From Xestospongia bergquistia (Eukaryota; Porifera; Demospongiae; Haplosclerida; Petrosiidae), in the NCBI GenBank assembly GCA_963965975.1, contig OZ014424.1, positions 682,001 through 746,000 of the forward strand: a stretch of 64,000 nt of DNA, written 5' to 3'. Below the pieces are notes generated by a model. It did no database searches and had not been told where the DNA came from. It saw nothing but the letters and a program-made list of their open reading frames with translations. Every line of letters starts with the position of its first letter. Position 1 is the stretch's first letter. Shown piece after piece: positions 3,823 through 62,549 of the stretch. Made by a program: the position numbers and the translations under genes.

Positions 3823-6800
3823 CTATTGTTTAACATTTAAGTTCAGTATTATACCAAGTTCTTTGTTGATTTCATCTTTCCAGCGTCCTGCTATAGCCTT
3901 AGCTGCAGCTTGCACTGCGCCACCTTGACTCGACAGACAGTCCAGAAATAATTGACAATGCTTCTCTAACTCAGGGACTGTTTTAAACTTCATTCCATTT
4001 TCATAATCATTCATTACACTTATATAAGTTGGGTTATGACAAACAGCGTTTGTGATCAATCCCTTGGCATACATTTCAGTAACGACATCTGGTAGACAAC
4101 CATATAACAAGTCACTTAAATTTGCAGACTGTTCCTGAAGCACCATCCTCAATATCTTTCTAACCCTCTCTGGGCTCACATCAGTAGCTCCTGTTTGAAT
4201 ATAATAGACTAATTAAGATATTCACATTGAATATTTACCTTGAAAAGATGGTTGGCATGGTTTAACTGACTTGTTTAGCGTATCAAACGGTAGTGACAAT
4301 GACTTTGATTCTTTCTCTTTTGCTCTCTCTACTTTTTCTCTTGTTTGACCTCCATATTTACTTAATAGTTTACTAATACTTTCCTGTTTAATATCATTAG
4401 CATCATCTAATGGTGTCCTCTTGTCAGCAATAGCATTGGGATCAGCATTTCTCTCTAAGAGTGTCTCTACTATTGTGAAGGATTTACCTCCTCTTATTGC
4501 AAAGAACAAAGGAGTGAATCCCCAAAAACTTTCTTGTTTATTTACATCAGCTCCAGCTTTTATGAGAGCAACCACTATATCAACATGTCCACATGATGAA
4601 GCTACCATGAGTGGAGTAAGACCTAGAACCAGTGGAGTATCTGGACTATCTAATGTCTTCATTACAACTGTTCCTTTAACACATGAGTCTAGTAGTTCTC
4701 TCTGGTCATTAGTGAGGTGTGAAAGTTTGTTTGAGAGGAAGGTAATGACAATAGGGTGACCACCTAAACATGATAGTACTACTGCTTTTTCAATCTCCTC
4801 AGTAGTGGGTTTAACTTTGTCTAAGAGCATATTAACAAGGTCTCTGTTACCACTATAAGCTGCTAATGAAAATGCTGTTGATCCTTTAGATGATAACAAG
4901 TGAGGATCTGCGTGTGATTGTAATAAACATTCTACAATTTCAAGATGACCATTCTGACTAGCTACCATTAGGGCATTGTAATCATATTCATTTAGAATAC
5001 TAACATCTGCATCCCATTGGAGAAGTAATTTAACAACTTGAGTATGACCATTAAAACTAGCTAGCATTAAACTAGTTAATCCATCGTTTCTCTTGCGATC
5101 AATGTCAGCATGTTCTTTGAGTAGTAGTTCAACGACCTGGTGATGACCATTATAACTAGCTAGCAATAATGCAGTACCTCCATCTTTTCTTTGATAGTTA
5201 ATGTCAGTTTTTTGTTGTAGTAGTACTTGAACAATATCATAATGGCCATAAAAACTTGCAATCATTAATGCATTTGAGCCATTTGATTTCTGTAAATTTG
5301 GGTCAGCACCATGCTGTATGAGAGTATTGACTATTGTAAGATGGTTGAGTTCACTTGCTCTCATGAGTGCTGTCCAGCCTTCATTTTCTTGAATATTAAC
5401 ATTAGCTCCAGCTGATGCTAATGATTTTACAATTCGTTCATGTCCTTCTTCACTAGCTAGCATTAGTGCAGTCACTCCATTTTTGTTCTGAGTATTAATG
5501 TCAGCATGTGCTTTAAGTAGTTCAACAACCTGATGATGACCATTGTGACTAGCTATCATTAGGGCAGACCATCCATCTTTTTCCTGAATATTAATGTCAG
5601 CATTCTCTTTAAGTAGTAGTTCAACAACCTGGTGATGACCTTTTTCACTAGCTAGTATAAGTGCTGTTTTGCCTTCTTCATTGCAATGGTTTATATCGCC
5701 TCCTAATTTCAGGAGAAATTTCACAGCTTCATTATGACCAGCTTTTGTAGCTTCTTGAAGAGCTGACTCAAAACTAAAGTTCATATTCTCATCTTCTTCC
5801 AGGATAGATTGACCATTAATTGTTAGACCAAAGATACCAATGAGACGCATAAAATGTAGCTTGTCTTGAGCATAAGCTATGAGACAATCAGCTGTAGAAT
5901 CATGAACAATATATTTAATACAAACTGAGCCTGTATCAATTGTGATATACTTCAAAAGAGATTGTTTTAATGGATGTGGTAGTAAATGTCTAACTAGTAG
6001 ATAAAGTCCTTGAATATTGGCATCATTCCATGGATTGTGTAATTCAATATAAATTTGAGGCATGCTTGTTAGATCTCCTAGATGTGAGGTGTATATGCTT
6101 TTTAGTTGGTCTTTGAGTTGTTTCACAGTAAATGAGCAACGTAAAGTCTCAGCTTTATCCATATGTTTTTTAAGTTCACTGACTAAGTTCTTGTCTTCCC
6201 CAAAACATTCATCATTAAGAAACCTTTCACTCACACGAATGATTATTTCACAGTCTAAAAAGTCAAAATATGGATGTAGTTTCTTGAAGAGCTTATCTAA
6301 ATCATTACATTTGTTGATGTCACTCAGTTCTTCAACCCAGTATAGTTCATACTTAATAAATATTGTGACATCTTCTAATTTTAGTAGTCGATGTTGTAGT
6401 TTATGAACAAGAGCTGATTGAACAGCAACTATTAATGTACTGAAATTTTGACGTAAACTCTGTAAAGAGGTTCTAAGTTCCATTTCCTTCTCTTTATTTT
6501 CTACTTCTACTTTTTGTTGATAAATGCTAGAGGCTATTGAGGTATAAAACAATTAAATCTAAAAGGAAAGTTTACAATACCTTGGATAGTGATTGGTTGT
6601 TCTGAAGTTGTTTCTAAAGAAGTAATAGGTTTTTGAGATGTTTCTGTAGCTAGATCATGTTCTTGGGATTTTTCTAGAGCAGACTTTACTCCCTGTCCTG
6701 ATGTAGGCACTCCATCTACAGTAATTGGATATAAATAACTTTATCATTATATTCCACGTAAGAATATTATCTATCAACATTACAAACAATCTATTATTAT

Positions 6801-8434
6801 TATTGCAGCTTGCTCTTTGCATACCAGGTAGTCCTATGATTGTTTTACCTATGTATACCATATATATGTTGTACCAATGAATGCTACAAATAATCTACCT
6901 TGCAGCATTAATGGATGAAATGAGACTAGTTGATACATATTTATAGTATGTAGATTGTTTTATTACATTGACAATAGAAACTGCATATAAATTAAAATGC
7001 ATTTTCAATTTTCACTGGAAAATCTAATGATTTTACAACAATGAATGTTATAGTGTTCACATAGCTTGACTGTACATTAGCTATTTGATTTTCTATGGAT
7101 AGGACAAATATAGTTTAATGTTATCCTTTTGCTGGTTGAGCATGCCATATGACATCTCCCAGAGTCAGTCAGTTTCTTAGTTTGGTTAATTAATAATAAT
7201 ATTGTGGACTTTGTGACTAACTTCTAGTTGCTATAGGCTCTCTGATAAGTATTACACTATGACATAAAGGTATAAAAATAAACTCTTTCATAGATTAGAG
7301 TATATGATGCTTACATGTATAGTATATGTCATGTAATATTTTTATAGACTTAATATAGTAAGTAATATAGTGACTTTTATTTATAATATCATTGTTACAT
7401 CTATGAAGGAGTGTAAACTTGTCAAAGCTTGCTTTGCTCAAAATCATGAATTCACAAATAACAACTGTGACAGGAATTCTATTGGAATGTTGCTATAGTA
7501 GTTATTTTATTGGTAAAAATAACAAGAACAATACATATTTGTGTCACTATATCTCAAAGATATGGACTACCATCATTTTATATTACTGACCTTGTTGTTC
7601 ATCACATGTAAGATTTAGTGAGATATCACATTGCTTTTTAACTTCTACTATCCAGTCTTGACATAACTTTTGAACAGCTGATTTCATCGGATCACCTTCA
7701 CTGGAGAGACATTGTAAGAAAAGTTGACAATGTTCTTGTAGCTTTGAATTGTCTCCCTTGATATTTTCCATTGCAATTTCAAATTGATCGATCATACTGT
7801 GAACAGTTGGAGAATCTCGGACTGATTTGATTATTAGGTCATGGGAGTACATCCTATCAGCAACTTGTTGGACACATGGTCGTAAATGGTCACTTAAATG
7901 AGCAAAATGGCTTTTCAGTACCTTCTTCAACACTTTATGAACTTCAGCACCTGTAATGTTATCGTAAAAATGTATACAGTTATCACAGGAAGGCTTTTAA
8001 AAATTCATGAGGACTTTTCTAGCAAGCTCAATTATACAAGTAACCTGTTTATTACTAGGTTGTATTTATTATAATAAATTAATAGAAATGAAAAAACTGA
8101 TTATTTGATTTAACCAATAATGGTTATATATAGGTCACATGTATAACCATATATAAATAAGTTAAAACATCATTCTATCAGTTATATGTTTTAATATTTA
8201 CTGACCTGTTTTAGGTCCAGGGTTGAGTTCAATATCACCTGATAAAAGGAGGAGAAGTAAGAGAAACAAAACTAGAGAGAATATCAAAGTACCACCACCC
8301 TCATCTCCTGATAACAATAGTGACTTTATACATCCAGGGGTATCAGTGGTAGAAGGAGTCTTTTTAGTAGTATATGGTATATGATGACAATACCATAACC
8401 CAATACTAGCTCTCCATTGAGAGATATCAATCAT
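3823..8434 (-). CDS. AnkR-A: 2A leader, HCQ module, ankyrin repeats, C-terminal HCQ module
   Basis: Five exons: 8206-8434, 7591-7950, 6581-6715, 4239-6533 and 3823-4190; all four introns are phase 1. The protein is about 1128 aa. Residues 1-76 are a leader with a hydrophobic run ending in the 2A-like motif SGDIELNPGP. Residues 77-196 are an HCQ module (LQEHCQLFLQCLSSEG). A Thr/Ser/Glu-rich linker follows to about 241. An uncharacterised region of about 245 residues (HPYFDFLDCEIIIRV) comes next, then roughly 13 ankyrin repeats (GHHQVVELLLKENADINIQ type) and a second HCQ module at 1007-1128. There is no Death domain, unlike AnkR-B, and no NACHT P-loop. A receptor or scaffold role is inferred. 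Exon junctions fit by phase and similarity; transcript evidence would settle them. Confidence 0.75.
8213..8236 (-). other. 2A-like ribosome-skipping motif DIELNPGP (AnkR-A)
   Basis: The codons read D-I-E-L-N-P-G-P, matching the 2A consensus D(V/I)ExNPGP, directly after a run of leucines (LLLLLLLSG). In this family the ribosome fails to join the last Gly and Pro, here residues 73 and 74. The hydrophobic stretch just before it could act as a signal or anchor when skipping fails. Confidence 0.85.
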
Positions 8435-18767: not shown

Positions 18768-20129
18768 TTACTGGATGATTGCGCTTATCTTGCTGGAGCC
18801 AATTCCACTATATACTCCAATAACATTGGTATAGAAAGATGTACCACTCTCCAAGTAATAGTACACTCTTCCTCTGTACTGAGTAGAGAATGATCCTCCA
18901 TAAAGTACAGCGGAGACAGTGATGGTCTCTGTGCGTGGAACTGTCACAGGAAATTCATAACATTGGTCAATTTCTTCCTCCATATGACGATCGTAAATCG
19001 ATGCAGAACTTAATTGGAGATGTGTATGTCCACCACTAGGGTTAGGGGCGAAAACAGGTAAAGCAGTTTCTACCTTGGTATTGAAATGAGACTCAAGGGC
19101 AGTTGTATATGACCAGTCACGTTTTTCAATAACTTTTTTACAACCTTTGAGAACATAGTGTTGATCTATTTTTCCTTTGGTATTATCATAAGTCACAGTG
19201 TGGTCATGAATTGGCTTAATAGGAATATTTCTGCTGAGGGAAGGATAAGTGAGAGATTGTAACTTTACTTCTTCAACATTACGTAGTAGTTGGAAACCAA
19301 ATGACATGACATAACTGGAAACCCTACCAACAGCGCTGATGAGTACTCCAGATCCAACTGGTACTCGATATGGACCGTGCAACTGTCCCTTCAGTGTATA
19401 CATCGAGAAAGTGCGGTTGAGATTGGTTCGCAAGTACATTCCACCAAAGTAACCTCTAGTACTAGTGCCATGTGTAACAGCATATAAGAGAAGAGTGGTT
19501 ACTTTCTCTCCATTTTGAAAGTAAAAGGTATCTGTTGAATATCCACTACTTGATCCCATGGAATATGACCAAGTGCTCTTTCCATTTGTATACTCAAAGA
19601 TGATGCCTCGAATAAATGTATTGTAATAATATCCTTTAATACTTTTAATAACTCGACCATATATGTGTCCATTAACATTGACTGTTTTCATTGATCCTGC
19701 ATTGTACCCAATGAATGCATCAGATGTAAAGATCTTCCTGTTAATTGAACTATAGGCATGCTTATAAGATGGTGGGATATTGGCTGCATTTGTTAATGAT
19801 TCGATTTTGGAGTCGTCATCATTTGTGTCAAGAGTAGATTGGTCTTCTTCATAGACAGCTTGAAAGTTGGTAGCTTCATCCATCTCAGCATCATTTGTGT
19901 CTTGATTATCATTTTCTAAAGTGGGACCATCTTTAGTTGGTTTTTTATCAGTTTCTAAAACAGGACCATCTTTGCTTTCTGCATCATTATCTGTCATTTC
20001 TGCATTCAATGACTTTTCTAAGTCCTTGGATAAATCATCCACTCCACCATTCACGAGGACACCACCCTCACCAAGAAGAGTGAAGGCTGCAAGCAGACCA
20101 ATGAACAGATAGACAACACATGCCTTCAT
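18768..20129 (-). CDS. Secreted jacalin-like/aerolysin-like protein, copy 1
   Basis: A single exon encodes 453 aa. Residues 1-28 are a signal peptide (hydrophobic FIGLLAAFTLLGEGG). Residues 30-120 are an acidic low-complexity linker with a repeated DGP-x-LE-x-D motif. About 130-290 resembles a jacalin beta-prism lectin (GIIFEYTNGKSTW, FGFQLL). About 290-453 resembles the aerolysin-type beta-pore-forming module of natterin-like proteins, including the insertion region and the C-terminal run of paired strands. In that family the lectin part binds glycans and the second part oligomerises on membranes. Both domains are recognised by eye and the second is less certain. A near-identical tandem copy lies 2.5 kb upstream. 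It could be defence, prey-lysis or self-matrix related; nothing here decides. Confidence 0.7.
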   Translation of the reverse strand: MKACVVYLFIGLLAAFTLLGEGGVLVNGGVDDLSKDLEKSLNAEMTDNDAESKDGPVLETDKKPTKDGPTLENDNQDTNDAEMDEATNFQAVYEEDQSTLDTNDDDSKIESLTNAANIPPSYKHAYSSINRKIFTSDAFIGYNAGSMKTVNVNGHIYGRVIKSIKGYYYNTFIRGIIFEYTNGKSTWSYSMGSSSGYSTDTFYFQNGEKVTTLLLYAVTHGTSTRGYFGGMYLRTNLNRTFSMYTLKGQLHGPYRVPVGSGVLISAVGRVSSYVMSFGFQLLRNVEEVKLQSLTYPSLSRNIPIKPIHDHTVTYDNTKGKIDQHYVLKGCKKVIEKRDWSYTTALESHFNTKVETALPVFAPNPSGGHTHLQLSSASIYDRHMEEEIDQCYEFPVTVPRTETITVSAVLYGGSFSTQYRGRVYYYLESGTSFYTNVIGVYSGIGSSKISAIIQ

Positions 20130-20199
20130 TTTTGAGTAAAGATTGGATTATCTGATATATGAGGTCAGATTCTACGACTAACACTGCACGTATGCTCCA

Positions 20200-21263: not shown

Positions 21264-22625
21264 TTACTGGACAATTGCGCTTATCTTGCTGGAGCCAATT
21301 CCACTATATACTCCAATAACATTGGTATAGAAAGATGTACCACTCTCCAAATAATAGTACACTCTTCCCCTGTACTGAGTAGAGAACGATCCTTCATAAA
21401 GTACAGCAGAAACAGTGATAGTCTCTGTGCGTGGAACTGTCACAGGAAATTCATAACATCGGTCAATTTCTTCCTCCATGTGACGATCGTAAATCGATGC
21501 AGAACTTAATTGGAGATTTGTATGTCCACCGCTAGGGTTAGGGGTGAAAACAGGTAAAGCAGTGACTACCTTGGTATTGAAATGAGACTCAAGGGCAGTT
21601 GTATATGACCAGTCACGTTTTTCAATAACTTTTTTACAACCTTTGAGAACATAGTGTTGATCTATTTTTCCTTTGGTATTATCATAAGTCACAGTGTGGT
21701 CATGAATTGGCTTAATAGGAATATTTCTGCTGAGGTAAGGATAAGAGAGAGATTGTAACTTTACTTCTTCAACATTACGTAGTAGTTGGAAACCAAATGA
21801 CATGATATAACTGGAAACCCTACCAACAGCGCTGATGAGTACTCCAGATCCAACTGGTACTCGATATGGACCGTGCAACTGTCCCTTCTGTGTATACATC
21901 GAGAAAGTACGGTTGAGATTGGTTCGCAAGTACATTCCACCAAAGTAACCTCTAGTACTAGAGCCATGTGTAACAGCATATAAGAGAAGAGTGGTTACTT
22001 TCTCTCCAGTTTGAAAGTAAAAGGTATCTGTTGAATATCCACTACCTGATCCGAGACAATATGACCAAGTGCTCTTTCCATTTGTAAACTCAAAGAGAAT
22101 GCCTCGAATATATGTATGGTAATAAAATCCTTTAATACTTTTAATAACTCGACCATATCTGTATCCATTAAAATTAACTGTTCTCAGTGATCCTGCATTG
22201 TACCCAATGTATACATCAGATGTAAAGATCTTCCTGTTAATTGAACCATAACCATGCTTATAAGATGGTGGGATATTGGCTGCATTTGTTAATGATTCGA
22301 TTTTGGAGTCATCATCATTTGTGTCAAGAGTAGATTGGTCTTCTTCATTAACAGCTTGAAAGTTGGTAGTTTCATCCTTGTCAGCATTGTTTTTGTCTTT
22401 GTTGTCATTTTCTAAAGTGGGACCATCTTTAGTTGGTTTTTTATCAGTTTCTATAACAGGACCATCTTTGCTTTCTGCATCATTGTCTGTGACGTCTGCA
22501 TCCAATGACTTTTCTAAGTCCTTGGATAAATCATCCACTCCACCATTCACAAGGACACCACCCTCACCAAGAAGAGTGAAGGCTGCAAGCAGACCAATGA
22601 ACAGATAGACAACATATGCCTTCAT
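21264..22625 (-). CDS. Secreted jacalin-like/aerolysin-like protein, copy 2
   Basis: Another 453-aa single-exon gene, colinear and largely identical to the one at 18.77-20.13 kb, with the same signal peptide, acidic linker, jacalin-like part and aerolysin-like part. Differences concentrate in the acidic linker and in the first half of the lectin-like part (for example VNFNGYRYGR against VNVNGHIYGR), the face that would contact ligand. The C-terminal half is almost unchanged. That pattern suggests divergence in binding specificity with the membrane-active part held constant, but it is only a visual comparison. The frame is open with no damage. Confidence 0.7.
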   Translation of the reverse strand: MKAYVVYLFIGLLAAFTLLGEGGVLVNGGVDDLSKDLEKSLDADVTDNDAESKDGPVIETDKKPTKDGPTLENDNKDKNNADKDETTNFQAVNEEDQSTLDTNDDDSKIESLTNAANIPPSYKHGYGSINRKIFTSDVYIGYNAGSLRTVNFNGYRYGRVIKSIKGFYYHTYIRGILFEFTNGKSTWSYCLGSGSGYSTDTFYFQTGEKVTTLLLYAVTHGSSTRGYFGGMYLRTNLNRTFSMYTQKGQLHGPYRVPVGSGVLISAVGRVSSYIMSFGFQLLRNVEEVKLQSLSYPYLSRNIPIKPIHDHTVTYDNTKGKIDQHYVLKGCKKVIEKRDWSYTTALESHFNTKVVTALPVFTPNPSGGHTNLQLSSASIYDRHMEEEIDRCYEFPVTVPRTETITVSAVLYEGSFSTQYRGRVYYYLESGTSFYTNVIGVYSGIGSSKISAIVQ

Positions 22626-22698
22626 TTTTGAGTAAAGGTTGTTGGGTTATCTGATATATGAGGTCAGATTATACGACTAACACTGCAGATATGGTCCC

Positions 22699-41081: not shown

Positions 41082-41779
41082 CATAGGGGTAGGAAGATAG
41101 TAGGGATTAGGAGGGCTAAAATATTATCAGTAGTAATAACTGTTCTATGAGCAGGGGGTTGCATTCCCAGATGTTTTTAGTTTGAAAACCTTGTAAAATT
41201 ATGTTAAATGATAACAGATGATTATGACTAAATTAAAGAAATGACATATGTACATGACCTAATAAAATATGTTAATAATGTCCAAAATAGTTTGCACGTC
41301 TCTCGTTGCTGGTTACAAAATCCTTTGCGATACTTAATAAATTTACCTTATCAATATGCTCCTTGTGTGTGTGCATCTGTACTACATTATTAAGTCTCTT
41401 TTGAGTCATTGTGGACCTTAAATAATTCTTCAGTCTTCGAAGTGATGAGAACGTACATTCTGCTGTAGTGGATGTGATTGGCACAGTCAAATAAATGGTT
41501 AAAAGCTTGTGTACGTCAGTGAATATTGATTTTCCTAAATCGCTACTGTACATTACTTCACAAATTGTGCGAACCTTGGTAATTGTTTTATCCCTTGGCT
41601 TGCTGTACTTACTCAGACAAAATCTTGAAGCTGGTTCACCAGCTTGTCAAAGTTGATGACAGATGAATATATTTCCATGTAACTTTACTTTGTTAACAAT
41701 ATTAGGGGGGCTAAGCCCCCCTTTAATCAACATTAGGGGGGCTAAAGCCCCCCTAGCCCCCCTGGTTCCTACCCCTATG
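41082..41779. mobile_element. Non-autonomous hAT element with perfect 8-bp target duplication
   Basis: The ends are perfect 14-bp inverted repeats CATAGGGGTAGGAA. They are flanked on both sides by CTATAAGA (41074-41081 and 41780-41787), an exact 8-bp target-site duplication, the length typical of hAT. Sub-terminal G-rich repeats (GGGGGGCTAA/GCCCCCC) lie at 41703-41760. The 698-bp element keeps only a piece of the transposase. Confidence 0.9.
41272..41687 (-). pseudogene. hAT transposase C-terminal fragment
   Basis: The frame open from 41553 encodes the hAT dimerisation region: VPITSTTAECTFSSLRRLKN then YLRSTMTQKRLNNVV. Upstream of 41553 homologous-looking sequence continues (FDKLVNQLQDFV) in another frame and runs into a stop, so it is decayed or spliced. 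The catalytic D-D-E core is absent. It resembles TTF/ZMYM-type hAT proteins of animals. Confidence 0.8.
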
Positions 41780-42212: not shown

Positions 42213-42933
42213 TTAGTGACTTAAGTTTAACAATATACCACAATTTTTATTGACTTCGTCATTCCAGTCTTTTGCTAAAACTTTAGCTGCTCCTACTGCT
42301 GGACCACCTTGACTGGACAAACATTCCAAAAATAATTGACAATGGTTCTCTAATTCAGAGACACTTTCAAGAAACTGTAATCCTACTTCTAATTCACGTA
42401 TCATACTGTCATAAGTTGGATTGTCTTTAACAGCCTCTGAGATCAATCCCTTGGAATACATTTCTGCTGCAACATATGGCAAGGTATCTTTCAAAGAGCG
42501 ACTCAAACTTGCAAATTTTTTCTTAAGTACTTCCTTTAATGTCCTACGAATCTTATCAATGTCAACACTAGCAGCTCCTTTGTACAATTGATGAAAGAAT
42601 GTGACATATGGTTGATTACTTACCTTGAGAAGATCTAAGTGTTGATTGTGTTCCTATGGCAACAAGGTTTTTCTTTACTTTCTCTGCTAAAGCATTTTCT
42701 CTTGCTGTTGTCAATGCAGTAATCACATCTTGCCATGAGGCATTGGGATAAAGTCTAAGCCATTCATCATAAAGGGCTGATTTCTGATGATATATACCTC
42801 TCTTATCAACTTCTATACTTTGAATATGTTCATGTTTTATTCCTGGTAAAAAAGTGCCAAACTTTTGCCAGTTAATCAGAGGACCAAGCCATAAAGTCAA
42901 CTTGTCAAACTCAGGTTTAGATGATAGAGACAT
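42213..42933 (-). CDS. DH6: Death-domain plus HCQ-module protein
   Basis: Two exons, 42624-42933 and 42213-42577, separated by a 46-bp phase-1 intron, encode 224 aa. Exon 1 is a Death-domain-like fold (NWQKFGTFLPGIKHEHIQSI, then ALYDEWLRLYPNASWQDVIT). Exon 2 is an HCQ module (ELENHCQLFLECLSSQGG). I start at MSLSSKPEF, conserved among all DH genes; an ATG 11 codons upstream is also possible and is conserved in DH5. There is no signal peptide or membrane span, so it is probably a cytosolic adaptor; the partner is unknown. It is almost identical to DH5 on the other side of AnkR-B. Confidence 0.75.
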
Positions 42934-42969
42934 TGCTGCTGGCACAACATTTAGCATTGTCAGCAATCA

Positions 42970-50600: not shown

Positions 50601-53180
50601 TAAATGTCCTATTAGTAGATAAAGTGCTTCAATATTAGCTTCATACCATGGATTGTGTAACTCAATTTGAATATGTGGCATGTTCACTAGATTTGTCTGA
50701 TAGGGAAAGTATATCTTTTTAAGATCATTTTTAAGTTGTTTGACTGTAGACAATGTACGAAGTCTCTTAGCATTAACCATATGTTCTTTAAGTTCATTGA
50801 CAAGGCTCTTGTCATCCCCAAAGTATTCATTATTCAAAAACATTTCACTCATATCCACAATTAACTTACAGTCTAAAAAGTCAAAATGTGGATGTAGCTT
50901 CTTGAAAAGCTCATTCAAGTCATCAATGTTGCCCAGCTCCCCAACCCAATTCATTCGATGTTCAATCCATCTAATAAAGTCCACTAGTACTAGTTGTTGA
51001 TGTTGTAGTTTACGATCAAGTGCTGATCGAACAGCTACCATTAACTTGCTGAAATGTTCATGTTGACTCTCTAATGCTGTTTGGAGTTTTTCTTCCTCTT
51101 CTTTATTTCCTACCATTAATTTTTCTGTAGTATTGCCAGTATCTACATGGAATGATAATACACAAGTAATAAACAACATTTTAAAAAATGAAGTGAAGTA
51201 GGAACAACAATCCCAAAAATTGAAACAAGATAGACATAACACATTTTACACACAAATTCATACAAATCCCTACACATAAGTAGCCTGGTAACAATAAACT
51301 AAGAAGGTATACAATTACTCATTTGCTTTGCCATGATATTGTCATCCAGATCCCTACATTTACTGGTCATTTTTCAATTCTTATATCAATTTTCAATTTT
51401 AAATATTTCTGTATAAAATTTTAATGAGGAGAATATATTGTATAGTGTGTTCTTTTTAATTTAAGTATATAATTTGTGTAATCTGTATATTTTTAGCTAA
51501 TGTAAGATACAAGATATTTTGTAAATGAAAATGTTTTGAATATTTATTGTATTTTGAGTGATCTAATGATTGAATTTAGGAAACATGTAATTTTTGTTAT
51601 TGTTTGTAGCAGTTGTCATGTATTTAGGTCAGTGTTTATATGAACATGCAATATGAGTTGTTTCATGATGTGTCTGTTGCTATAGAAATAGTGAACAAAG
51701 ATAATATAATTATAAAAATCATTCTAAGTTGAAGGACTGGATTATTGCTAACTTTGAAGACTGCAGCAATGAGTTGGTAGAAACTATGGAACTATATCTG
51801 AAGTATCAATACTAAGAAGCTTCAATCAGTCATACTCAATCAAAGTGTTCTCATTGGATGCTATATGTATTAGTACTAGCATTTACCATAAACTGACCTT
51901 GTTGTTTAATATCTTGTTCATCACATGTAAGATCTAGTGAGATATTACATTGCTTTTTAACTTCTTCCATCCAGTCTTGACATAACTTTTGAGCAGCTAA
52001 TTTAGTAGGACCACCTTCACTGGATAGACATTGTAAGAAAAGTTGACAATGTTCTTGTAACTTTGAAATACTGTCTGCTAATCTCATTCCACTTTCAAAT
52101 TCACCAATTACATTGTAAACAGTTGGAGAATCTCTGACTGATTCAGTTATCAGTCCTTTAGAATACATTGATGCAGAAACACGTGGTAAACATCTATTTA
52201 ACTGGTTATTTAAGTCAGCAAAATGGCTTCTAAGAACACATTTCAACACTTTATTAACTTCATCACTTTCTGTAGTACTGGTACCTTCTATGTCACCATA
52301 TACAGATTTAGAACAAAAAATCTTGCTTTTGACCTGGTCACTTATTCCTTCTTTCTGTCCTTCTGTTTGCCCTTGGTAAAGAAAGGAAGCTGTAAGGATT
52401 GAGTTTAGATGAGTGAACTGTCAATCTAGTTCCACTCCTTTTATGGAGTAAGTCATACCAGAACTGTACCAAAAGACTAACTGTGCGCCTTCAATATAGG
52501 AAATCAATAGAATATACCTTGTTATGTACTTTACTAAACTATTATACTACATTGATAATTATTTTAAAGTACTAGTATATAATGAACTATATATAGTAGA
52601 TACCTTCATCTTTAATATCTAGTTGTCTTCTCAATGTAGTAGCTACATCAACATCACCACAATTCTCAATAGCTGAAATGAGTTCTTCCCAAGAGGGGGA
52701 AGTACCATTTGTAATCCACCATTGTAAACCTTCTTCTAATGCAAAGTGGTAGTCTTGATCACTGCTGGCCATTGTCTTGAGTCTTCTTCTCTCCTCCAAT
52801 GACACACCTAGAAGAATAGTGAGTTCGTTCCACTTGTTTTTAACAACAAAACCACTCTTAATAAGAACTTGTAGAACATTAATTGATGTTAACTCTATTA
52901 AAGTAAATTGAATCATCATTCCATCAGTTATATGTTTTAATATTTACTGACCTGTTTTAGGTCCAGGGTTGAGTTCAATATCACCTGATAAAATGAGGAG
53001 AAGTAAGAAAAACAAAACTAGAGAGAATATCAAAGTACCACCACCCTCATCTCCTGATATCAATAGTGACTTTATCCATCCAGGGATATCAGTGGTAGAA
53101 GGAGTCTTTTTAGTGGTATATGGTATATGATGACAATACCATAACCCAATACTACCTCTCCATTGAGAGATATCAATCAT
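44607..53180 (-). CDS. AnkR-B: giant 2A leader, Death, HCQ, ankyrin-repeat protein
   Basis: Four exons, 52952-53180, 52604-52894, 51898-52389 and 44607-51142, all with phase-1 junctions, give about 2515 aa. Residues 1-76 are the 2A leader (IFSLVLFFLLLLILSGDIEL then NPGP). Residues 77-173 are a Death domain (KNKWNELTILLGVSLEERRR, then SPSWEELISAIENC). Exon 3 is a 50-residue linker plus an HCQ module (LQEHCQLFLQCLSSEGG). The single 6.5-kb last exon has a region of about 250 residues shared with AnkR-A (HPHFDFLDCKLIVDMSE) and then roughly 50 ankyrin repeats, about 30 of them nearly uniform 33-residue copies. The end is a basic, Ser/Thr-rich tail without an HCQ module. No NACHT or kinase is seen. 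It may be a large sensor with Death-mediated signalling; that is inference. Confidence 0.8.
45580..48770. repeat. Homogenised 99-bp ankyrin array inside AnkR-B
   Basis: About 32 consecutive 99-bp units encode NGHHQVVELLLKEHADINIQ-type repeats. Blocks of several units recur in the same order, for example the sequence of units carrying FNGHHQVIELLLKEH, GQNGHHQIVELLLKK and LNGHFQVVELLLKEN. This shows duplication of multi-unit segments, not single units only. Confidence 0.9.
52959..52982 (-). other. 2A-like ribosome-skipping motif DIELNPGP (AnkR-B)
   Basis: Identical in sequence and position to the motif in AnkR-A, after a hydrophobic run. The leader exons share nearly all residues, with a few changes in the hydrophobic core and upstream. 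Confidence 0.85.
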
Positions 53181-53379: not shown

Positions 53380-53730
53380 AACACTGTATAGCCACTGTTT
53401 GTTGTATATAGGTGATCTCTTTTTATAGTGTCCTTACTGTTTCCACGGAAACTATAGACTATAGTTACAATTTTACCATAAAAGTACTGTTCTATTTTTA
53501 AAGGATGATACTTTGGTATTAACAATGGGAACATGAATCTCATTATAATGTCATATGAGGTGTGGTTTAATATCATTCATGCTCTTTTCACCTAAACAGT
53601 TGTAATTTTGACCAAATATGATCAAATAATGAATTTGGTTACACATGTTCAAATTTCAATTAATTTTTTCTAATCACGTGACTATGAATAGCTGTAGTGA
53701 CCATGTTTAGTTAGCAGTGTTACATAAACA
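53380..53730. repeat. Interspersed repeat copy upstream of AnkR-B
   Basis: Sits about 200 bp before the AnkR-B start, the same place as the copy before AnkR-A, so this may be a shared promoter-proximal block of a gene duplication. It includes GTCATATGAGGTGTGG and AATTTTGACCAAATATGA. Confidence 0.6.
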
Positions 53731-54009: not shown

Positions 54010-54730
54010 TTAGTGACTTAAGTTTAACAATATACAACAATTTTTATTGACTTCCTCATTCCAGTCTTTTGCTAAAACTTTAGCTGCTCCTACTACTGGA
54101 CCACCTTGACTGGACAGACATTTCAGAAATAATTGACAATGGTTCTCTAATTCAGAGACACTTTCAAGAAACTGTAATCCTGCTTCAAATTCACGTCTCA
54201 TACTGTCATAAGTTGGATTATCTTTAACAGCCTCTGAGATCAATCCCTTTGAATACATTTCTGCTGCAACATTTGGCAAGGTATCTTTCAAAGAGCGACT
54301 CAAACTTGCAAATTTTTTCTTAAGTACTTCCTTTAATGTCCTACGAATCTTATCAATGTCAACACTAGCAGCTCCTTCGTACAATTAATGAAAGAATGTG
54401 ACATATGGTTGATTACTTACCTTGAGAAGATCTAAGTGTTGATTGTGTTCCTATGGCAACAAGGTTTTTCTTTACTTTCTCTGCTAAAGCATTTTCTCTT
54501 GCTGTTGTCAATGCAGTAATCACATCTTGCCATGAGGCATTGGGATAAAGTCTAAGCCATTCATCATAAAGGGCTGATTTCTGATGATATATACCTCTTT
54601 TATCAACTTCTATACTTTGAATATGTTCATGTTTTATTCCTGGTAAAAAGGTGCCAAACTTTTGCCAGTTAATCAGAGGACCAAGCCATAAAGTCAACTT
54701 GTCAAACTCAGGTTTAGATGATAGAGACAT
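54010..54730 (-). CDS. DH5: Death-domain plus HCQ-module protein
   Basis: Exons 54421-54730 and 54010-54374, with a 46-bp phase-1 intron, give 224 aa. The Death exon is essentially identical to that of DH6. The HCQ exon differs at a handful of residues (ELENHCQLFLKCLSSQGG). Similarity also covers the intron and the upstream TTTAGCATTGTCAGCAATCA repeat. DH5 and DH6 are direct repeats about 11.8 kb apart that bracket AnkR-B. Helices and length agree with a small two-domain adaptor. The start is uncertain between two in-frame ATGs, as in DH6. Confidence 0.75.
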
Positions 54731-54769
54731 TGCTGCTGGCACAACATTTAGCATTGTCAGCAATCACAC

Positions 54770-55256: not shown

Positions 55257-56438
55257 TTAAACACTCAAGTTCAATGATATACCAAATTCTTCATTAACTT
55301 TCTTTTTCCATTCTTCTGCTAAACGTATAGCTGCTCTTTCCACTGGACCACCTTGACTGGAAAGGCTGTCCAGAAATAATTGGCAATGGTTCTCTAATTC
55401 CACAACACTTCCCTGGAACTGCATTCCATTTTGAAATTCACCAATCATGCTTCCAAATGTTGGTGCTTCGTTAACAGCATCTGCAATTAAATTTTTGGCA
55501 AACATTTCTGTAGCAACATTTCGTAAATTAACTCTCAATGTACGGTCTAAAACAGCATACTGATTCTGGAGTACTCTCTGCAATGACTTGCGAAGCTTGT
55601 CTATGTTAACACTAGTGGCTTCTTTGTTAAGTGCTATAAAAGTGGATTGGTTGCTTTAGCATATGCATACGAGTATATATATGTGTGTATTTATAGTAGG
55701 TTGATATAACATATACATGATATGATACTAGTAAGCACCACACAATTTTTATTACTAATATACTAATTGACAGGTCATGTAGTAAATTATTGTCTAGATT
55801 TGAGCTGTCATTAGTTAGACAAAAGAATCATCATGAATGCCAGATATATTTGTGTGGGCTGTTATTATGGAGTTGATGTTAGGGCAGACCCCTATCACAT
55901 GCATGCCATTTCTAAGAATTCATACTATTGAACTAATGATCTGACAATTCCATAGTAATTAGTAATCCAAACAGCATATATAGTTGATGCTTTCCAATGA
56001 TAGATGTGCTTTGTAGGCATGTATGAAGCCAGTGACTATCATTAGTTAAAAGAATCAATCTATTTCAACAGTACAGTGTTGATATAATTGATTACAGTAT
56101 TACTGTTTTATTAATAGTTGCTTATTACCTTGAGGTGAAGTAAGTGTTGGCTGTGTTGGTATACCACCAAGTTTTTTCCTTATGTCTTCTGCTAAAGCAT
56201 TATTGTCTGCCTCTTTCAATGCAGTAATTACATCTTGCCATGTGGCTCCAGGGTATATTTCAGTCCATTCATCATAAAGTGCTGATTTCTGCTTATCAGT
56301 ACCTTTATTATCATTCTCTATTTTTAGGATATGTTCTCGTTTTATTCCTGGTAAGAATGCAGCAAATTTTTGCCAGTTAATCATAGATTTGAGCCAGCTT
56401 GTCCATTTATCAAACTCAGGTTTAGATGAATGAGACAT
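55257..56438 (-). CDS. DH4: Death-domain plus HCQ-module protein
   Basis: Exons 56129-56438 and 55257-55621, separated by a 507-bp phase-1 intron, give 224 aa. The Death exon starts MSHSSKPEFDKW and has NWQKFAAFLPGIKREHILKI and ATWQDVITALKEADNNALAE. The HCQ exon has VELENHCQLFLDSLSSQGGP and ends in GISLNLSV. A longer N terminus from the ATG at 56492 is possible but not conserved. No linker exon is needed for phase, although the long intron could hide one. It is more diverged from DH5/DH6 than they are from each other. Confidence 0.72.
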
Positions 56439-56492
56439 ATTCATAAAGCAGACACAAGTGTCTTCTGGTATAGCAAAATGCCAAATCAGCAA

Positions 56493-58185: not shown

Positions 58186-59093
58186 TTAGTAAACATTTAA
58201 GTTCAGTATTATACCAAGTTCTTTGTTGATTTCATCTTTCCAGCATCCTGCTATAACCTTAGCTGCAGCTTGCAGTGGGCCACCTTGACTGGACAAGCAG
58301 TCCAGAAATAATTGACAATGCTTCTCTAACTCAGGGACTGTTTTAAATTTCATTCCATTTTCATAATCATTCATTACACTTATATAAGTTGGGTTACGAT
58401 AAACAGCCTGTGTGATCAATCTCTTGGCAAACATTTGCGTAGCAACATTTGGTAGACAACCATATAACAAGTCAGTTAAATCTCCAGACTGTTCCTGAAG
58501 TACTCTCTTTAATATCTCTCTAACCCTGTCTGGGCTCACATCAGTAGCTCCTGTTTGAATATAATATATTAATTAAGATATTCACACTGAATATGAGAAG
58601 AATCATGTACTGACTGTATTACAATGTCACTGACCACTGTAATGACTAATATATGTAATAATTAATGAAAAAATAGTATGTGATGAGTAAAGAAGATATT
58701 TATATATTGGTTACTTACCTGGTAGTGTTGATTGTGTTCCAGTTGCACCAACTACATTAGAAACTCCTATATTATGTACAACAATTAACTAAACAATAAC
58801 ATTACATCCTTTTACTACTCACCTTGTGAACAATACTTCTCTTTTACTTTTTTTGCTAAAGCATACTCTTCAGCTTTCTCCAATGCAATAATTACATCTT
58901 GCCATGTAGCATCAGGATAAATTGCAAGCCATTTGTTATAGAGTGCTCTTTTTTTATTTGGTATGTTTCTTTCTTCCATGTCTATTCTTTCAACATGCTC
59001 TGGTTTTATTCCTGGCAAATGATCAGCAAAATCTTGCCATTTATTTAGAGGAGCAAGAAATTCAGTCAACTGGGAAAATATAATCTTAGCCAT
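58186..59093 (-). CDS. DH3: Death-domain plus HCQ-module protein
   Basis: Three exons, 58823-59093, 58719-58766 (a 48-bp linker reading VSNVVGATGTQSTLP) and 58186-58550, give 227 aa. The start is set at MAKIIF to align with the other DH proteins; an ATG at 59120 would add nine residues. The Death-like part has NKWQDFADHLPGIKPEHVER and YPDATWQDVIIALEKAEE. The HCQ exon (ELEKHCQLFLDCLSSQGG) is strikingly close to the last exon of AnkR-A, including the flanking intron. Both introns are phase 1. Confidence 0.72.
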
Positions 59094-59468
59094 TGTTGCT
59101 GGGAGTGACTCTTGTACCAAGTGACAAAATATATGTCACTGTTTACAAGTGTCATGTGACAGTCAGCCAGCATTGATCATGTGATACAGAGATAGAATGA
59201 TGTAAACACCTGCATCATTTTGTAAAGTAAATCTTATTAATATATTCATATATCATATGTGATCAATGTGAATGTTTTTATGATGATCATGCTGTGCATA
59301 TTACATGTTGTCATATGGTATGTCTTTAACATCCCCAGATTACAAATTGAGAGTAGTGACATTGTAGCAAATTATATGCATGGAACAAATAGACTTGTGT
59401 CAAATTATGTGCACATAGTATTAAAAACAATGACAATAATGATACCAAATAAAGGCCTCGCAGGTCTA

Positions 59469-61693: not shown

Positions 61694-62516
61694 TTAGTCA
61701 AATAAAGTTATGCCAAACTCCTTCTCAATTGTATCTTTCCATTTATCTTTTAAACCCTTAGCTGCATATTTTGCTGCACCACGTTGACTGGAAAGACTTT
61801 CCAGAAGTAGCTTGCAGTATTCCTCTATCTCTGAAGGATTTTTCTGAAACTTTAATCCAGCTTCAAATTCATTTATCACACTATTATAAGTTGGATTGTT
61901 TTTAACTGCCTTTGCAATTACACCTTTGGCAAACAATTGTCCAGCAACACCATTTAGAACTTCCGCATCTTCCAATGCATCACTTAAATCAGCAAATTGT
62001 GTTGTAAGAACATCTCTCAATGTTGTGCGAAGTTTGTCTGGATTAACATTCACTATAGAATATTGTAAATGCATTTCACTAAATTATTTTTGGTTGCTTA
62101 CCTTGACCTGTGACAACTTTTGGTTGTACTCCTATAGCACTAGCTTCACTAGCTGCTTCTATATGTAATAGCAATTGATTAATGAATGAATGCAAGACTT
62201 ATGCTTCCTTACCTTGAGGAGAATTCTGTGTTTGTTGCACACCAAGATTTTGCTTTATTTCATCTACTATTGCATTTTGTTTTGCCTTCTCTAGTGCAGT
62301 AATTACATCTTGCCATGAAGCATTGGGATAAACTTGTAGCCATTTATTGTAGAGTGCCCGTTTTTGACCTTCTATGTCTCCAGGATGATTAATCTCAATT
62401 TTTTCAATATCACATCCTTCAATTTCTGGTAAAAAGGCACCAAAGTCTTGCCACTTATTCAAAGAGCCAAGCCATAAAATCAACTTGTCAAACTCAGGTT
62501 TAGATGATAGAGACAT
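61694..62516 (-). CDS. DH1: Death-domain plus HCQ-module protein
   Basis: Three exons, 62213-62516, 62102-62158 (linker ASEASAIGVQPKVVTGQ) and 61694-62052, all joined in phase 1, give 239 aa. The Death-like part has NKWQDFGAFLPEIEGCDIEK and YPNASWQDVITALEKAKQ. The HCQ module is the most diverged of the nine: HCQLFL becomes YCKLLL and LSSQGG becomes LSSQRG. That comparison marks the invariant core as Glu-x-x-(H/Y)C, Leu, and LSS(Q/E). The start at MSLSSKPEF is conserved; an ATG 11 codons earlier is also in frame. Confidence 0.74.
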
Positions 62517-62549
62517 TGCTGCTGGTATACCATTTAGTATTGTCAACAA

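Follow-up and report, generated by a model that had tools for sequence, protein, structure and literature searches.

What does a 2A (StopGo) peptide do at the front of a giant receptor-like protein in a cellular genome? A survey describes StopGo as a device that cellular organisms use rarely, if at all (PMC12846837). In the 64,000-nucleotide stretch of DNA analysed here (the window), an earlier note had reported a separate, hydrophobic first exon that closes with a D(V/I)ExNPGP octapeptide and is joined in frame to Death, HCQ and ankyrin sequence. The exon is there, as a 74-residue leader (52952–53180, minus strand), and splice-site reading supports the join in phase 1 (Table 1).

The leader exon and the gene behind it

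The gene begins with an ATG at 53180 on the minus strand, a GT donor lies directly after 52952, and the AG of the intron precedes 52894. On this reading the leader ends in LLILSG-DIELNPGP and runs through a phase-1 join into the Death exon, with the coding frame staying open past the final proline of the 2A sequence; further phase-1 joins, read by eye, lead from Death to HCQ and from HCQ to the large exon. The Death domain has the six-helix death fold, and its exon scores 18.1 bits for PF00531 against a curated cut-off of 22.6 bits, which a paralogue (L107) passes with 22.9. Compared by sequence with solved structures, the HCQ module gave no match at E ≤ 1. Pfam places 47 ankyrin stretches over cut-off in the large exon and, scanning this exon and the joined first exons, finds no NACHT domain, as the earlier note had held for this protein. 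The downstream exons thus show ankyrin repeats and no retrotransposon protein; a retrotransposon origin of this copy is not supported, and the retrotransposon-like 2A places of the genome are separate.

Table 1 Features of the window gene and of the second leader exon
Feature	Position in window	Strand	Basis
Leader exon, coding part: 74 residues through NPGP, then KT plus one base of the codon that follows	52952–53180	(-)	ORF and junction reading
Conserved N-terminal motif, residues 1–16: MIDISQWRGSIGLWYC	53133–53180	(-)	dN/dS 0.25 and pattern search
Linker, residues 17–49, near-neutral	53034–53132	(-)	dN/dS 0.95
Hydrophobic segment, residues 50–65, overlapping the StopGo upstream hexapeptide LLILSG	52986–53033	(-)	dN/dS 0.21, hydropathy, charge counts
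2A/StopGo octapeptide DIELNPGP; skip expected between G73 and P74	52959–52982	(-)	Motif match
Intron, 57 nt, phase 1, GT...AG	52895–52951	(-)	Splice-site reading
Death domain exon	52604–52894	(-)	In-frame join after 57-nt intron
HCQ module exon, seven helices, CARD-like	51898–52371	(-)	Splice ends read by eye
Large exon, ~2,180 residues: pre-ankyrin domain, then a long array of ankyrin repeats and a C-terminal tail that runs to the stop codon	44607–51142	(-)	
Second leader exon of the window	8206–8434	(-)	Ankyrin ORF 4225–6552 and HCQ ORF 7586–7954 downstream

The window holds a second match to the D(V/I)ExNPGP pattern (8214–8236) besides the one at 52960–52982. The gene behind it has ankyrin repeats confirmed by Pfam, and no Death exon was found in that gene. 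Upstream of the first leader, a TATA-like TATAAAAAG lies at 53419–53427 on the minus strand, about 240 bases before the ATG, and a likely 5′ UTR intron ends TTTGTAG, before GTCATTATG.

Copies of the leader across the genome

Exact codon-level matches to D(V/I)ExNPGP number 161 in the 146.46-Mb genome, against 0 for the reversed pattern. Of these places 159 are listed, and 102 of the 159 were read as DNA (100 in loci outside the window and the two within it). Of the entries read, 88 (87 places) have a core resembling W[RK]xx[IV]G and 15 have none; some of the 15 are leaders that have broken down or diverged (L013 and L038, for instance), and others are retrotransposon-like or unrelated. Setting aside three entries without a full leader leaves 85 complete leaders of 62–78 residues (median 74), all of which share M1 and I2. 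Besides the 2A residues, which are invariant by choice of loci, M1, I2, W7, R8 and G12 do not vary in an alignment of 24 diverse leaders.

The N-terminal pattern QWRxxxIGxW alone matches 118 times in the genome (reversed pattern, 0). Among the 100 matches listed, 96 have a 2A sequence 150–195 nt downstream on the same strand, all in frame (for one of these, the 2A position is an estimate based on where the leader matches at L111). A leader query stripped of the motif gave 150 matches, of which 132 adjoin a listed motif; a further match, L111, was seen on reading to contain it, making 133 of 150. Nine of the remaining 17 were read: two carry GVELNPGP (p12 = G), one (L109) combines KPGP and a changed end of the exon, five are broken (L110, L112, L114, L115 and L118) and one has no recognizable leader in the printed frames. 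Because both searches are independent of the motif-based choice of loci and both point to the 2A sequence, we regard the leader as a cassette. A chance motif is ruled out by the 161 matches against 0 reversed and by the pairing of N-terminal motif and 2A. The p12 = G form is counted as functional in the StopGo survey (PMC12846837). L109 (C14:894000–894350) reads DVELKPGP, and a single base has changed where its exon ends; this copy is either a pseudogene or a naturally occurring variant that does not skip.

The donor is in phase 1 in all 88 entries (87 places). Introns of 43–65 nt occur in 46 of 49 paralogous leader joins; acceptors were picked from those AGs that preserve phase 1, which makes the in-phase joins, unlike the donor phase, partly a matter of construction. 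The earlier note had described the leader of one gene; it is real, but it is one copy among well over 100 genes, NACHT genes included.

What follows the leader varies. Within 6 kb, looking along the same strand as far as the next motif, NACHT is found at 47 of the 159 listed motif places, the pre-ankyrin domain at at least 33 and neither at 79, a count that took in all 95 NACHT matches and 47 of 150 pre-ankyrin matches. A Death-like exon lies within 4 kb of at least 100 of 132 leader places, a lower bound because 76 of 108 and 62 of 150 matches from two lists were used. Pfam confirms NACHT in six loci and ankyrin in two (L020 and L026). A tandem-Death class is represented by two Death-like exons within a 2-kb stretch of one place on C4; their Pfam results fall short (14.7 bits, below cut-off, for one and no Death match for the other), so this class rests on alignment and a separate search for Death-like exons. 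At L011 (C1:2166500–2176499) the leader leads in phase 1 into TPR repeats and then a CHAT protease domain (E = 1.3e-44), an architecture reminiscent of bacterial TPR-CHAT proteases; of 13 CHAT matches in all, no other lies close to a listed motif by coordinates. NLRs of the same genome that lack the leader are seen at C2:8.8–9.15 Mb, where a NACHT gene cluster has no listed 2A motif nearby.

On a tree of leaders, a single change parts NACHT from ankyrin labels (which drew on 42 of 95 NACHT and 32 of 150 pre-ankyrin matches), a weakly supported result with 54 of 80 inner branches open; it is compatible with the leader having passed just once between the NACHT and ankyrin classes.

In a large protein database the leader profile matches 343 protein clusters, and the full motif is present in 114 of the 120 listed and missing from 6. 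Some of these matches are plainly from the source species or a close one. No spliced leader–Death join was found among 212 database proteins examined, at least six of which have leader and Death with the intron read through in frame. Two proteins, P0143 and P0144, join a leader with NVELNPGP (p12 = N) to the HCQ module and are identical save for 15 residues after NPGPKTA; their longest contigs, of 2,674 and 2,629 nt, are 45 nt apart. Both differences are expected of a 45-nt phase-1 intron retained in one case and removed in the other. The pair, in which the lengths suggest an RNA origin for P0144, hints at splicing at a leader–HCQ junction in another organism or assembly and is the closest that this analysis comes to RNA evidence. 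A further database leader, P0141, has a linker of more than 90 residues and retains the N-terminal motif as well as the hydrophobic end with its 2A.

Constraint on the leader and its possible role

Pooled Nei–Gojobori dN/dS over the 85 leaders is 0.25 for residues 1–16, 0.95 for residues 17–49, 0.21 for residues 50–65 and 0.07 for residues 66–74, the last value being biased because the loci were chosen by that motif. Bootstrap ranges over leaders are, in the same order, 0.22–0.30, 0.85–1.05, 0.18–0.25 and 0.05–0.10, and 29 representatives give 0.27, 1.00, 0.27 and 0.09; the leader pairs pooled here depend on one another, and the arrays have probably undergone gene conversion. Every bootstrap preserves the contrast of N terminus and linker. 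pS of residues 1–16 is 0.33, as high as elsewhere in the leader, and the constraint therefore acts on protein rather than RNA.

The hexapeptide upstream of the octapeptide was used in none of the searches. It ends [SAC]G in all 85 leaders and is LLILSG in 67; the four residues before [SAC]G are all hydrophobic in 81 leaders and three of the four are in the other 4. These hexapeptides match StopGo motifs 2/6, and the window leader has both a permitted upstream hexapeptide and the core octapeptide. Leucine-rich StopGo hexapeptides likewise end (A/S/C)G before p12 = D and, among four classes with a representative that supported skipping in vitro, motif 6 is one, according to the survey (PMC12846837). 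The leaders thus share with RNA-virus StopGo the core octapeptide and the leucine-rich hexapeptide, and differ in belonging to cellular genes, in using as hexapeptide the end of a membrane-type segment and at p15, which is Leu in 80 of 85 leaders and mostly Ser in the L-rich StopGo motifs (PMC12846837).

The hydrophobic stretch begins near residue 48 (range 36–55), and a median of nine residues separates its end from, and includes, the final proline. Assuming skipping, the leader has the single hydrophobic segment near the C terminus that marks tail-anchored proteins. The flank on the N side is the more positive in 53 of the 85 leaders and that on the C side in 22, a small difference that does not fix topology.

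Our preferred reading, to which we assign a probability of about 0.6 taken as a whole, is that the leader exon is a StopGo cassette which exon shuffling has placed, as a phase-1 unit, in front of several classes of immune-type protein with death folds, and that it causes skipping and yields a leader that matters. The ribosome would usually skip the G73–P74 bond. With the ribosome at G73, the hydrophobic segment would be about 9–25 residues from the catalytic centre, which, given the length of the ribosomal tunnel, is still inside it; a skip at this point would free a peptide of tail-anchored layout and leave the receptor soluble. The freed leader would have 73 residues, its sole hydrophobic segment ending about nine residues from the C terminus, and would act as a tail-anchored membrane peptide with its conserved N terminus facing the cytosol, a fate that we infer from the spacing alone. 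The Death–HCQ–ankyrin receptor would be made as a free cytosolic protein beginning with proline. Where the skip failed, the hydrophobic segment would serve as a signal anchor and tether the receptor of about 2,500 residues to the membrane, so that one mRNA would give a fixed pair of membrane peptide and soluble receptor together with a minority tethered form.

The recurrence of the exon, over a hundred times and on several kinds of immune protein, suggests that each leader-bearing gene makes a small membrane peptide and a free receptor. With a hydrophobic start near residue 48 and a separately conserved N terminus of 16 residues, the freed leader resembles an independent product, and a receptor made without skipping resembles an anchored protein rather than a secreted one. 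We advance more tentatively, as possible though doubtful, a skipping rule for the whole genome, by which over 100 receptor genes, with four or more architectures among them (Death–HCQ–ankyrin, Death–NACHT, tandem Death and TPR–CHAT), would each co-produce, in a 1:1 ratio, a tail-anchored microprotein whose face MIDxxQWRxSIGLWYC acts as membrane partner, monitor or inhibitor of its own receptor; the receptor would then be tethered where skipping failed, as it might during infection or translational stress.

The nearest precedent is the NLR leader of Strongylocentrotus purpuratus, which has 26 residues, skips at about 80%, sends its unskipped product to the Golgi and is exocytic once skipping is abolished (Roulston et al. 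2016, PMC4981915). In dual targeting of that kind, the leader would be a switchable signal sequence, with the skipped receptor cytosolic, the unskipped one secretory and the freed leader waste. The order of parts is the same, with an N-terminal hydrophobic leader ending in D(V/I)ExNPGP before a death-fold immune protein, and the sea-urchin leader does behave in this way in HeLa and plant cells (PMC4981915). However, the leader there is 26 residues long against a median of 74 here, where the hydrophobic stretch starts at residue 36–55, and a waste leader does not predict a dN/dS of 0.25 at residues 1–16 beside a linker at 0.95. The hosts differ as well: the sea-urchin signal sequence stands on NACHT–LRR proteins (PMC4981915), whereas the leader here, of about 74 residues and with a linker behind its conserved N terminus, fronts NACHT, tandem-Death and TPR–CHAT genes besides the NACHT-free ankyrin protein. 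We consider dual targeting unlikely, and the earlier description of the leader as the same switch is not supported for a hydrophobic stretch that lies near residue 48 behind a conserved 16-residue N terminus, as opposed to a 26-residue signal. An internal start that would give a short leader like that of the sea urchin was rejected, as the linker has no conserved Met and a Met at position 41 occurs only in some copies.

The conserved N terminus could instead serve translation or early targeting, through start context or the binding of a cotranslational factor during the pause, with no separate leader product. Residues 1–16 would be about 58–73 residues from the catalytic centre at the skip, which, given the length of the tunnel, is likely just outside it. 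The pS of 0.33 points to constraint at the level of protein, with which a cotranslational role of the protein remains compatible, and we judge this explanation improbable.

Still less probable is a plain signal-anchor exon, its NPGP end inactive or barely active and the receptors simply membrane-anchored. The authors of work on Dysidea avara NLRs do report transmembrane domains and suggest membrane-bound NLRs, in expanded Death–NACHT genes whose membrane segment is unexplained there; the text searched mentions neither StopGo nor ankyrin (PMC12909245). An anchor has no need of the octapeptide, yet the motif is kept at 133 of the 150 leaders found without it, and the StopGo hexapeptide is matched in 85 of 85. 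It is hardly credible that the leader is a passive remnant of a 2A-bearing retrotransposon, spread to gene fronts by retrotransposition: some 2A places of the same genome (L017, L018, L019 and L023) do look retrotransposon-like and are followed closely by a PHD-type cysteine pattern, but the leader copies retain open frame, start codon, donor and phase, precede host-type immune domains and have dN/dS of 0.2–0.27 in three of four segments, unlike neutral carriage (the 2A segment being biased by locus choice). Non-LTR retrotransposons bearing 2A sequences, reportedly described by Odon et al. in 2013, resemble the window gene in having the 2A near the N terminus, and such places occur in the same genome; unlike them, the window 2A is followed by Death, HCQ and ankyrin and not by retrotransposon proteins.

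Relation to known systems and other features of the window

N-terminal 2A sequences on immune proteins are already known. The earlier note had them on the NLRs of both sea urchins and sponges; the sea-urchin case is documented in the report cited above (PMC4981915), and sponge reports were not found in the literature searched, which likewise yielded no paper on 2A in sponge or ankyrin proteins. As far as these searches show, three things are new: the bipartite build of the leader, its presence on ankyrin and TPR–CHAT proteins, and the scale. At least 133 leader copies with a canonical motif, among 150 leader-like matches, occur in one animal-type genome on NACHT and non-NACHT immune-type proteins. 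If active, they would form a large natural system of cellular recoding and could explain the membrane segments reported on sponge NLRs. Natural variants, including the copies with p12 = G and p16 = K, could serve in tests of how skipping controls receptor location, and a neutral linker between two constrained ends makes it a sharp, testable claim that the freed leader has a job.

Elsewhere in the window, two tandem, nearly identical ORFs of 459 and 460 residues on the minus strand (18771–20147 and 21267–22646) have a hydrophobic start and no Pfam match, and a C-terminal fragment of a hAT transposase lies between receptor genes at 41275–41646, also on the minus strand. An array of small, leaderless two-exon genes with Death and HCQ runs on the minus strand (42216–42966, 54013–54763, 55260–56492, 58189–59135 and 61697–62549). 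Pfam Death is over cut-off at 54413–54763 and 56103–56492, and the Death–HCQ pairs at 42.2–43.0 and 54.0–54.8 kb are nearly identical.
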